Source: Lysobacteraceae bacterium
GTDB lineage: Bacteria; Pseudomonadota; Gammaproteobacteria; Xanthomonadales; Rhodanobacteraceae
Assembly: GCA_004143945.1 (NCBI GenBank)
Contig: SEHB01000009.1
Coordinates: 62,001 to 126,000, forward strand
Direction of reading: 5' to 3'
Length of the DNA stretch: 64,000 nucleotides
In this document: positions 16,390 through 20,722 of the stretch, one piece after another
Position numbering within the stretch: the first letter of the stretch is position 1
How the letters are laid out: every line of letters starts with the position of its first letter
The notes under the pieces: model-generated
Database searches by the model: none
Told to the model about the DNA's origin: nothing
The model's input: only the letters and a program-made list of their open reading frames with translations
Translations under genes and position numbers: made by a program

Positions 16390-17250
<861 letters not shown>

Positions 17251-17278
17251 CGTCTAGCCTCCTGATGCGTTGACCACT

Positions 17279-17305
17279 TTAGCACTCGCTTCCTTTGAGT
17301 GCTAA
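17279..17305. promoter_or_regulatory. CIRCE operator (HrcA binding site) upstream of rpoH
   Basis: TTAGCACTC-N9-GAGTGCTAA is a perfect match to the CIRCE consensus. It is located about 29-55 bases before the rpoH start codon, in the expected leader. CIRCE is the operator of the heat-shock repressor HrcA and is usually found before groESL or dnaK operons. Confidence 0.93.
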
Positions 17306-17362
17306 ACGCGGCGGGAGTTCCTGCCGGACTGGCTGCCGGGAACAGTTACTGAACTGACCGGT

Positions 17363-17390
17363 ATTGTACTTAAAAGTTCAGTTCCGCAAG
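17363..17390 (-). promoter_or_regulatory. Candidate rpoH promoter
   Basis: On the minus strand TACAAT (17368-17363) is a good -10 element, with CTTGCG/TTGCGG about 15-16 bases upstream as a weak -35. Transcription would start near 17356, placing CIRCE in the leader. A GAACTGA/TCAGTTC inverted repeat (17351-17357 and 17378-17384) brackets the -10. Confidence 0.4.
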
Positions 17391-17431
17391 CGCCGCCGGA
17401 CGCAACACACTGTTTCAGCTCTTATCCTATC

Positions 17432-18187
17432 TCATTGATTGTGAATGCTTTCAGTACCCGGGCGCCGGTCGGGCAGCGTCCCGGCAGTCCGCAACGCTGC
17501 CGCCGGCGGCAGCCGCCAGTCGACCGCCCCGCGCCCCTTGTCGCGCAAGTACTCGTTTGCACGGGAAAAATGCCCGCAGCCGATGAAACCGCGGTGGGCG
17601 GACAGGGGCGAAGGATGCGGCGCCTTGAGCACGAGGTGGCGCGCCCGGTCGATCAGGCGACCCTTGGCCTGCGCGTAGCTGCCCCAGAGCAGGAATACGA
17701 GGTGCTCGCGACCGCGGTTGAGTGCATCGACGCAGGCATCGGTGAATTCTTCCCAGCCCTTGCCCTGGTGCGACCCGGCCAGCCCGCGCTCCACCGTGAG
17801 CACCGCATTGAGCAGCAGCACGCCCTGGCGCGCCCACGGCTCGAGGCAGCCGTGGTCGGGACGCGGGAGGCCGAGGTCGCGCGCGAGTTCCTTGAAGATG
17901 TTCTCGAGCGACGGGGGCACCGCGACGCCGGGCGGCACCGAAAAGCACAGTCCATGCGCCTGGCCCGGGCCGTGATAGGGATCCTGGCCGAGGATCACGA
18001 CCTTGACCTGCTCGAACGGCGTCGCGTCGAGCGCGGCGAAGATGCGCGGACCGGGCGGATAGATCGCCTTGCCTGCGCGTTTCTCCGCGCGCAGGAAGTC
18101 CGACAGCGCCTGCATCCGCGGCTGCTCGAACTGGTCGCCGACGCGCGCCGTCCATGACGGATCCAGGCGCAGCCGCTCCGCGCTCAC
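17432..18187 (-). CDS. ung: Uracil-DNA glycosylase
   Basis: 251 residues; family-1 Ung, which excises uracil from DNA in the first step of base-excision repair. The water-activating motif is GQDPYHG (residues 67-73, Asp69) and the minor-groove intercalation loop is [11 protein letters not shown] (His191). I chose GTG 18187 because it forms a 4-bp GTGA overlap with the stop of the upstream receiver gene; the sequence [14 protein letters not shown] then begins at the usual place. It is the last gene of an ftsE-ftsX-receiver-ung operon, an unusual partner for cell-division genes. Confidence 0.95.
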
Positions 18188-19029
18188 GCGCCGGCGTGCC
18201 CGCGCAGGCGGCGCGCGACGCGCAACTGGAACTGCAGCTTGGTCACGAGCAGGCGTTCCTCGATCGGCTTGTGCACGAGGTCGTTCGCGCCCGCGCGCAG
18301 CAGGGCGGCCTGGTTGGCGGGGTTGTCGTCGCCGGTCATCACGAGCACCGGCAGTTCGCCCTTGGCGTAGCGATAGCCCGCGCGGATGCGCTCGAGCAGG
18401 TCGCCGCCACTGAGCTCGCCCTTGAGGTTGACGTCGGTCAGCACGAGGTCGGCGCCGGGGGCGCGGTTCTCCGCGCGCGCGGCATCGAGGATCTCGATCG
18501 CGGCCTCGACGCTGACCACGTGGCTCACCGTGAAGCCGCACTTCTCCATCATGCGCCGCGTCGCGAGCGCGACCACGCGGCTGTCCTCGACGTAGAGCAC
18601 GGTCCCGCTGACCTGTTCGATTGGGCGCACGTAGCCGCGGATGAACGTCGCGAGTGCATCGAACCCGAGCGCCTTGTCGAAATAGTCGGTCACGTGGCTC
18701 GACAGCGTGCGCGCGACGAGGCGCTCCTGCACGTCGCCGGAGACCACGACGATCGGGATGTACGCCTGGTTGGATGACTCGCGCGCGCGCCGCGCGAGTT
18801 CGAGTCCGTCCATGTCGGGCAGGCGCAGGGCGGTCGTCACGAGGTCGAACACGCCTTCGTCGAGCTCGCGCGCCGCGTCCGCGCCGCTGCCGCAACCGAC
18901 CACGACCGCGTTCGGCAATTCGGCCTTGAGCACGCGCTCGATCAGCTGGCGCACGACGCGCGAACCGTCGACGACGAGCACGCGCGGCTCGTCGCTCGAG
19001 ATGTGGCGCGTCAGCGACACCTCGCTCAT
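18184..19029 (-). CDS. Dual receiver-domain protein; first receiver lacks its phosphoacceptor
   Basis: 281 residues made only of two CheY-like receiver domains. Receiver 1 (about 16-130) reads [15 protein letters not shown], with Ala67 where the phosphorylated Asp belongs, and VVDGS in place of the usual acidic pair. Receiver 2 (about 143-260) is intact: VLYVEDS, Asp199 in [12 protein letters not shown] and Lys244 in VHKP. There is no DNA-binding, kinase or GGDEF output domain, so it should signal by protein contact. Start ATG 19029 overlaps the ftsX stop (ATGA). Its position between ftsX and ung hints at a link to division, but that is inference. Confidence 0.85.
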
Positions 19030-20038
19030 GCGCCCGGCCTGCCCGCGGCGAGGTGGCGCGCGGTCGCGATCCAGGCGCCGATCCAGCCGAGCAGCGTGCT
19101 CGCGCCGACCAGCGAAAGCGCGGTCGCGAGGTCGATGCCACGCGGCTCGAAGCGGTTGCCGAAGCCCGCGAGCAGCTGCGTGAGCGGTCCTGCAAGCGCC
19201 AGTTGGACCGCGAGCACGAGCGCGAGCGCGAGCAGGCTGCCGAACAGGCCGTACCAGGAGCCCGCGTAGAGGAACGGACGGCGCACGAATCCGTCGCCGG
19301 CCCCGATCAGCTGCATCACCGCTATCTCCTCCGAGCGCGACTGGATGTCCATCCGAACCGTATTGCCGATCACGAGCAAGGTTGCAAGCGCGAGCAGCGC
19401 GGCGACCACGACGACGACGCGCGCGCCGAACGCGAGGATCGCCGACAGCTTGCGGCGCCACTCGACATCGTACTGCACGAGGTCGACCGCGGCCTCGGCG
19501 CGCAGGTCGGCGAGCAGCGATGGTTCAGCCGCGCCGACGGCGGCATCCGCGGGCGTGACGACCAGCACCGCCGGCAAGGGATTGTCGCGCAGCGCGTCGA
19601 GCGCGTCGTTGTAGCCCGAGAGTCGGCGGAACTCCGCGAGGCCTTCGGCGGGCGTGCGCAGCAGCACGCCGGCGACATCGGGGCGTTCGCGCAGCCGCTG
19701 CGCGAGCGCCTCGCCCGCGCGCGCGTCGAGGCCGGGATCGAGGAAGACGGTGATCTCGCGCGCGGCGCGCATGCCGCCGGAGAGGTCGCGCGCATTCTGG
19801 AACGCGAGCAGGAACAGCAACGGCAGCGCGAGCGCGAACCCGAGCACGAGCACGGTCAGCGCACTCGACCACGGTCGCGCGGCGAGCCGGCCGAGGCTCG
19901 AGAAGAAGCTGAAGAAATGCTGGTCGCGCCAGCCGCCGATGCGCGCGGCGAGCGGCACGCGCGAACGTGGCGCGCGCGCGGGCGCCTCCTTCCTGGGTGG
20001 CGGCGCCGGCTTGCGCGCGTTGCGCTCGGCCTGCGGGC

Positions 20039-20042
<4 letters not shown>
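19026..20042 (-). CDS. ftsX: Cell-division permease FtsX
   Basis: 338 residues with the FtsX layout. It has a Pro/Arg-rich cytoplasmic head, a first membrane helix (about 60-83), an extracytoplasmic domain of about 130 residues, and three C-terminal membrane helices. The conserved [10 protein letters not shown] segment follows the second helix. With FtsE it forms the ABC-like complex at the septum that activates cell-wall hydrolases through coiled-coil activators. Start overlaps the ftsE stop by ATGA. Confidence 0.93.

Positions 20043-20722
<680 letters not shown>

Follow-up and report, generated by a model that had tools for sequence, protein, structure and literature searches.

Predicted HrcA operator in the rpoH leader

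The window, i.e. the whole stretch of 64,000 nucleotides that was analyzed, encodes on its minus strand (positions 16390-17250) the heat-shock sigma factor RpoH (sigma-32) of 286 amino acids, assigned by the TIGR02392 model (rpoH_proteo) with 410.3 bits against a cut-off of 323.1. The open reading frames delimit its leader to positions 17251-17431 (minus strand), between rpoH and the end of ung, a gene identified through NCBIfam that ends at 17432 on the same strand. Further upstream (17432-20722, minus strand) the genes appear to follow the order ftsE-ftsX-response regulator-ung-rpoH, the first three of which were assigned by visual inspection.

The leader contains, at positions 17279-17305 of the minus strand, a palindrome that matches the CIRCE consensus TTAGCACTC-N9-GAGTGCTAA without mismatch and reads TTAGCACTC-AAAGGAAGC-GAGTGCTAA with its spacer on the rpoH strand. 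It ends 28 nt (17251-17278) before the ATG at 17250, and the gap includes a Shine-Dalgarno sequence AGGAGG seen at 17258-17263 (minus strand), the GGAG column of which is conserved in the family alignment. The initial annotation had claimed a perfect CIRCE before rpoH, and both the exact palindrome and the assignment of the downstream gene by the RpoH model bear this out. Judging from the sequence comparisons below, we regard it with high confidence as a predicted HrcA operator. In 100 dinucleotide shuffles of the window no CIRCE match was obtained, which, together with the scan of the host genome and its read-backwards control, rules out a chance palindrome.

HrcA, RpoE and CIRCE sites in the host genome

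The host genome (3.67 Mb in 29 contigs) was searched for the repressor on which the proposed control of rpoH depends, and hrcA was found as a single copy (PF01628, 217.8 bits). One RpoE gene exceeds the cut-off of its model (TIGR02939, 328.2 bits; cut-off 236.15), and 12 weaker ECF matches to the same model are present. The CIRCE before rpoH is the sole site with two or fewer mismatches in the entire genome, while three sites appear when up to three mismatches are allowed: the one before rpoH, one at groES (CTGGCACTC-N9-AAGTGCTAA, three mismatches) and one on contig 10, where no heat-shock gene was recognised by eye. A read-backwards control scan of the genome with up to three mismatches gave no CIRCE, and none was found within five mismatches at the hrcA locus.

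Operator and hrcA across the order

In a sample of 150 genomes of the order we identified rpoH in 144, hrcA in 70 and groES in 142, and the six genomes without an rpoH match were left out of the counts. Among the 144 rpoH-bearing genomes an operator with at most two mismatches and a 9-nt spacer precedes rpoH in 57 of the 69 with hrcA and in none of the 75 without it, counts that ignore kinship, the genomes not being independent. The best matches with a 9-nt spacer in the leaders lacking hrcA (n = 75, some of these genomes being incomplete) carry at least six mismatches. The operator thus tracks hrcA and recurs in the rpoH leaders of relatives, where it had been expected, and this comparison argues for the suggested control of rpoH by HrcA. 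In the family of the window all 24 genomes have an rpoH operator with no or one mismatch, and a relaxed scan of the order (up to five mismatches, spacer of 8 or 9 nt) found one in 67 of the 69 hrcA-bearing genomes. Perfect arms separated by an 8-nt spacer precede rpoH in G016 and G034. No clear rpoH operator was seen in the hrcA-bearing genomes G019 and G121, though groES carries one in both. G019 is the only genome of family f9 with hrcA, and has two rpoH-like genes, one of them below the family cut-off.

No sampled genome of families f7, f8 or f10 has hrcA, and the gene is also missing from 23 of 24 genomes in f9, 1 of 24 in f2, 3 of 10 in f4, 1 of 4 in f5 and 2 of 9 in f12. Because it is missing in several separate families, the joint absence of hrcA and the rpoH operator probably arose several times. 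A possible natural case of hrcA loss with a decaying operator is G013 of family f2, in which no hrcA was found and the HrcA of the window, used as query, finds nothing in a 3.5-kb stretch around grpE, whereas its relative G061 has an almost full-length HrcA match there (residues 1-345, 61% identity). The rpoH leader of G013 retains GGAACTT-N15-GTCCAA, while of the palindrome a remnant is left, with a disrupted left arm, a spacer of 10 nt and five mismatches when spacers of 8 to 10 nt are allowed. The outer left arm is already weak in hrcA-bearing relatives (G061 and Xanthomonas pisi), and the support that G013 lends to such a loss is therefore modest.

The same distribution bears on whether the palindrome could be an RNA element rather than a DNA operator, forming a hairpin in the rpoH mRNA that serves stability or thermosensing. 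Structure prediction for the leader does pair the two arms, upstream of the AGGAGG ribosome site, and the palindrome ends 28 nt from the ATG, but the fold is no better than that of shuffled sequences (z 0.15) and many operators are altered in one arm, which breaks a pair. In addition, all 75 leaders of genomes lacking hrcA are without the palindrome (up to five mismatches, 9-nt spacer), although an RNA element would not need hrcA, and a transcript started by sigma-E (see below) would begin within the hairpin and hence be without the full structure. From these absences and the shuffle-level fold we judge a hairpin to be unlikely as the main role, and consider the RNA reading as a whole very improbable.

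A sigma-E-type promoter overlapping the operator

Sixteen nucleotides before the operator a sigma-E-type -35 element, GGAACT followed by C, starts in the window sequence (17316-17321, minus strand), and a sigma-E-type -10 element, CTCAAA (17294-17299, minus strand), is formed by the last CTC of the left operator arm and the first three spacer bases. Together they read GGAACT-N16-CTCAAA (17294-17321), and the exact composite with the operator lies at G000:C3:79279-79321. The sigma-E -10 consensus is GTCNNA, at 15-17 nt from the -35. Relative to it the -10 in the window has TCNNA, with the G replaced by the C of the operator, and its -35 (GGAACTC) shares six of seven letters with GGAACTT.

This arrangement is recurrent in the order. 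GAAC begins 13, 15 or 16 nt before the operator at 64 of 67 rpoH sites, and GGAACT with at most one mismatch is found 14-18 nt before the terminal xTC of the left arm at 61 of the 67, compared with 2 of 54 groES sites and a background of 2.9% of positions in the same leaders at which such a motif is found. The six sites without an aligned -35 are those of G095 and G115, both from the family of the window, and of G054, G038, G045 and G052. Among the rpoH sites whose spacer is 9 nt long, 52 of 65 have A as the third spacer base, which would complete the -10; among the groES sites 2 of 54 do. On these grounds HrcA quite probably controls rpoH through an operator overlapped by a sigma-E-type promoter. 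The initial annotation had proposed two stacked heat-shock circuits; the link between HrcA and rpoH stands, but because the operator overlaps a sigma-E-type promoter there are probably three circuits rather than two.

A base shared by operator and promoter

Sigma-E-like matches, defined as GGAACTT with at most one mismatch, N14-16 and xTCNNA, were found in 47 of the 75 rpoH leaders from genomes lacking hrcA (shuffle mean 1.2) and in 52 of the 69 from hrcA-bearing genomes (shuffle mean 0.85). At the base x preceding TC the operator has C and the promoter G. Without hrcA, x is G in 39 of the 47 matches. Among hrcA-bearing genomes family f2 stands apart, with G in 17 of 20 matches, while 31 of 32 matches from the other families have C. 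The rpoH sites of f2 have a CAG left arm in 18 of 22 cases, and of these 16 of 18 also have a GACTG right arm, giving a symmetric operator variant, TTAGCAGTC-N9-GACTGCTAA, that agrees with the letter G of the sigma-E -10.

The simplest reading is that operator and promoter both make use of this one base and that the operator was the one to yield in f2, symmetrically; the G of the promoter prevailed there and the far arm changed with it, and the operator would therefore have been remodelled by the promoter. Counter to this simple story, three families outside f2 also include sites altered in the right arm only (e.g. G002, G015 and G074). At the groES sites of f2, where no such promoter was found, the left arm is CAGTC in 9 of 19 and the right arm GACTG in 3 of 19; since these arms vary without a sigma-E-type promoter, the HrcA of f2 may accept both letters. 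As to a change in the HrcA recognition helix as the source of the f2 variant, SPATIRN is present in all 24 HrcA proteins matched by the search expression, 4 of them from f2, but this expression itself required SPATIR, and 14 of 38 loci were unmatched and dropped, so that the agreement carries no weight.

Occurrence across the class

A search of 369 genomes of the class with the composite pattern GGAACT-N10/11-TTRGCASTC-N9-GASTGCTAA, the spacer being unconstrained, found it in 68 genomes from 53 genera, while the reversed control gave none. In all 30 composite loci that were fetched, out of the 68, an rpoH homologue lies directly downstream. Although the search left the third spacer base free, 63 of the 68 composites have A there.

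A second set comprised 80 rpoH loci from named genomes, in 50 of which hrcA was sought, with counts made by hand. An operator with at most three mismatches precedes rpoH in 29 of 34 genomes with hrcA and in 3 of 16 without it; these three (L011, L051 and L061) are all metagenome-assembled, and the other five hrcA-bearing genomes have no rpoH operator at this threshold. Carriers of both include Nitrosomonas, Pandoraea, Trinickia, Polynucleobacter, Methylocaldum and Pseudoalteromonas, the last with a weak HrcA match, and genomes with neither include Haemophilus, Photorhabdus, Shewanella, Vibrio and Aeromonas. In Pseudoalteromonas luteoviolacea (L057) a perfect CIRCE precedes rpoH and the HrcA match is only 46.6 bits; this HrcA is perhaps diverged. 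The occurrences in the order, the named genomes and the class rule out that the operator is a peculiarity of the host genome. Taken together with the contested base, the evidence tilts towards a class-wide chimera in which operator and ECF sigma promoter would share letters, HrcA would directly gate the sigma-E input into rpoH, and the two readings would compete for single bases.

An aligned -35 is present in 27 of 44 operator-bearing leaders of the named set and absent in 17, among them several from Burkholderiales and that of a metagenome-assembled Rhodanobacter (L076). Inspection by eye suggests that [AT]AT frequently comes after the operator in leaders such as L053, L059 and L060. With this ending, TTRGCA-N18-TAANAT could itself take the part of a sigma-70 promoter in leaders that lack the sigma-E -35.

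The 17 leaders without the aligned GGAACT are in keeping with a plainer alternative, in which the site is an ordinary HrcA operator, transcription comes from a sigma-70 promoter upstream with HrcA as a roadblock, and the sigma-E match is mere decoration. A sigma-70-like sequence, TGGAC-N16-20-TACNAT, does lie upstream of the operator in 16 of 24 leaders from the family of the window, but decoration would predict neither the constant distance nor the NNA letters nor the conflict between G and C. In the rpoH leader of the window itself, a scan of positions 17200-17500 for TTGACA-N16-18-TATAAT (at least 9 of 12 letters) found no sigma-70 promoter. We consider this alternative rather unlikely, and the sigma-70-like and sigma-E-type promoters may both be used.

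rpoH and groESL as HrcA targets

Groups of HrcA targets were compared through the quality of their sites. The groES leaders of 61 of the 69 hrcA-bearing genomes were covered; those left out are G001, G005, G019, G075, G116 (start unrecognised) and G131, plus G014 and G055, which have no groES match. Of these 61 genomes, 40 have the stronger site before rpoH and 9 before groES (G003, G010, G061, G096, G101, G121, G125, G126 and G141), and in 12 the two sites are equal. Most of the nine belong to f2 and carry the CAG operator variant. In the family of the window the rpoH site is better in 21 of 24 genomes, with two ties and one case in which it is worse.

A groESL CIRCE with up to five mismatches is present in 54 of the 61 hrcA-bearing genomes, and the other seven all belong to f12, where no groES CIRCE was found in 7 of 7 hrcA-bearing genomes (G030, G038, G045, G052, G059, G066 and G073). 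In each of these seven the rpoH operator is the sole CIRCE with two or fewer mismatches genome-wide, and rpoH appears to be the only HrcA target in f12. No CIRCE within five mismatches was found at any of the 37 hrcA(-dnaK) loci examined from the 70 hrcA-bearing genomes, one of which (G033) has no rpoH match; autoregulation of hrcA and direct control of dnaK through CIRCE are rejected for the order on this count.

The frequent groESL sites, and the nine genomes in which they surpass the rpoH site, would also suit a view of the rpoH operator as an inherited remnant of little effect, with control of groESL as the real role of HrcA. Against this, the rpoH site is better in 40 of the 61 genomes and equal in 12, prevails in the family of the window, and has no groES counterpart in f12, and we find a relic scarcely plausible.

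Relation to known systems

The HrcA/CIRCE regulon, with groESL and hrcA-grpE-dnaK-dnaJ as targets, has the same consensus, TTAGCACTC-N9-GAGTGCTAA (PMC545781), and the host likewise has HrcA. It differs in that the best site of the host lies before rpoH, its groESL site has three mismatches, and no CIRCE occurs at the examined hrcA loci of the order. The initial annotation had set a CIRCE before rpoH apart from the classic groESL and dnaK cases, but the arrangement is common in the order, and a perfect CIRCE before rpoH was predicted from sequence for Geobacter sulfurreducens in 2004 (PMC545781, Table 8). In that species rpoH is listed together with groESL and hrcA-grpE-dnaKJ, three targets in all, of which groESL alone is described as constant among delta-proteobacteria (PMC545781), whereas in the present order rpoH is the more constant target and the hrcA-grpE-dnaK loci examined yielded no site. 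The available portion of PMC545781 contains no mention of an overlap with sigma-E at the Geobacter site. Transcription of E. coli rpoH by sigma-E is also already known: its promoter P3 is a sigma-E promoter with -35 GGAACTT (PMC8103513), and the host has GGAACT likewise. A control profile search of E. coli gave no HrcA match. To our knowledge P3 carries no operator, whereas the sigma-E-type -10 of the host lies within the predicted HrcA operator.

A search at the level of literature listings, not of full texts, found no HrcA operator overlapping a sigma-E promoter at rpoH, and likewise neither the contested base nor a greater constancy of rpoH than of groESL among HrcA targets. If CIRCE at rpoH was described earlier, this is most likely in the study by Permina and Gelfand from 2003 on beta-, gamma- and epsilon-proteobacteria.

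In the usual picture HrcA/CIRCE and sigma-32 are parallel or alternative systems, but here HrcA seems to stand above sigma-32 and, in many families of the class, to act on bases that sigma-E would read as well, so that one short DNA stretch may link three stress circuits. If this is true, loss of HrcA, for which E. coli gave no match, would be the loss of a gate on rpoH and not only of a groESL repressor. The leader would also provide a natural example of DNA that evolves while two regulators read it, and in which the contested base can be named.

Proposed control of rpoH

Our best reading is that HrcA blocks sigma-E-dependent transcription of rpoH. What was observed is the operator sequence with the promoter elements that overlap it, both conserved, the genes hrcA and rpoE, and the co-occurrence of the operator with hrcA; binding and repression by HrcA, use of sigma-E and the start site are predicted from these. 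HrcA activity depends on GroEL. In unstressed cells an HrcA dimer kept active by GroEL would occupy the operator and, since it would cover the promoter -10, hold rpoH transcription down. Unfolded cytoplasmic protein would occupy GroEL, upon which HrcA would release the operator, and sigma-E that envelope stress has set free could direct RNA polymerase to start rpoH transcription inside the operator; RpoH would then drive the chaperone genes. Because bound HrcA would cover both the -10 and the start region, rpoH would be freed only when HrcA is inactive, and the output of sigma-E would be gated by the cytoplasmic folding load. A basal transcript may come in addition from the upstream sigma-70-like promoters (16 of 24 family leaders), and HrcA could act on it as a roadblock.

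A dyad, TGTAC-N4-7-GTWCA, is present upstream of the operator in 20 of the 24 family leaders, over the -10-like hexamer of the sigma-70-like promoter, and may be bound by a further regulator. The corresponding stretch of the window is GTACAATACCGGTCAGTTCAG, at positions 17349-17369.
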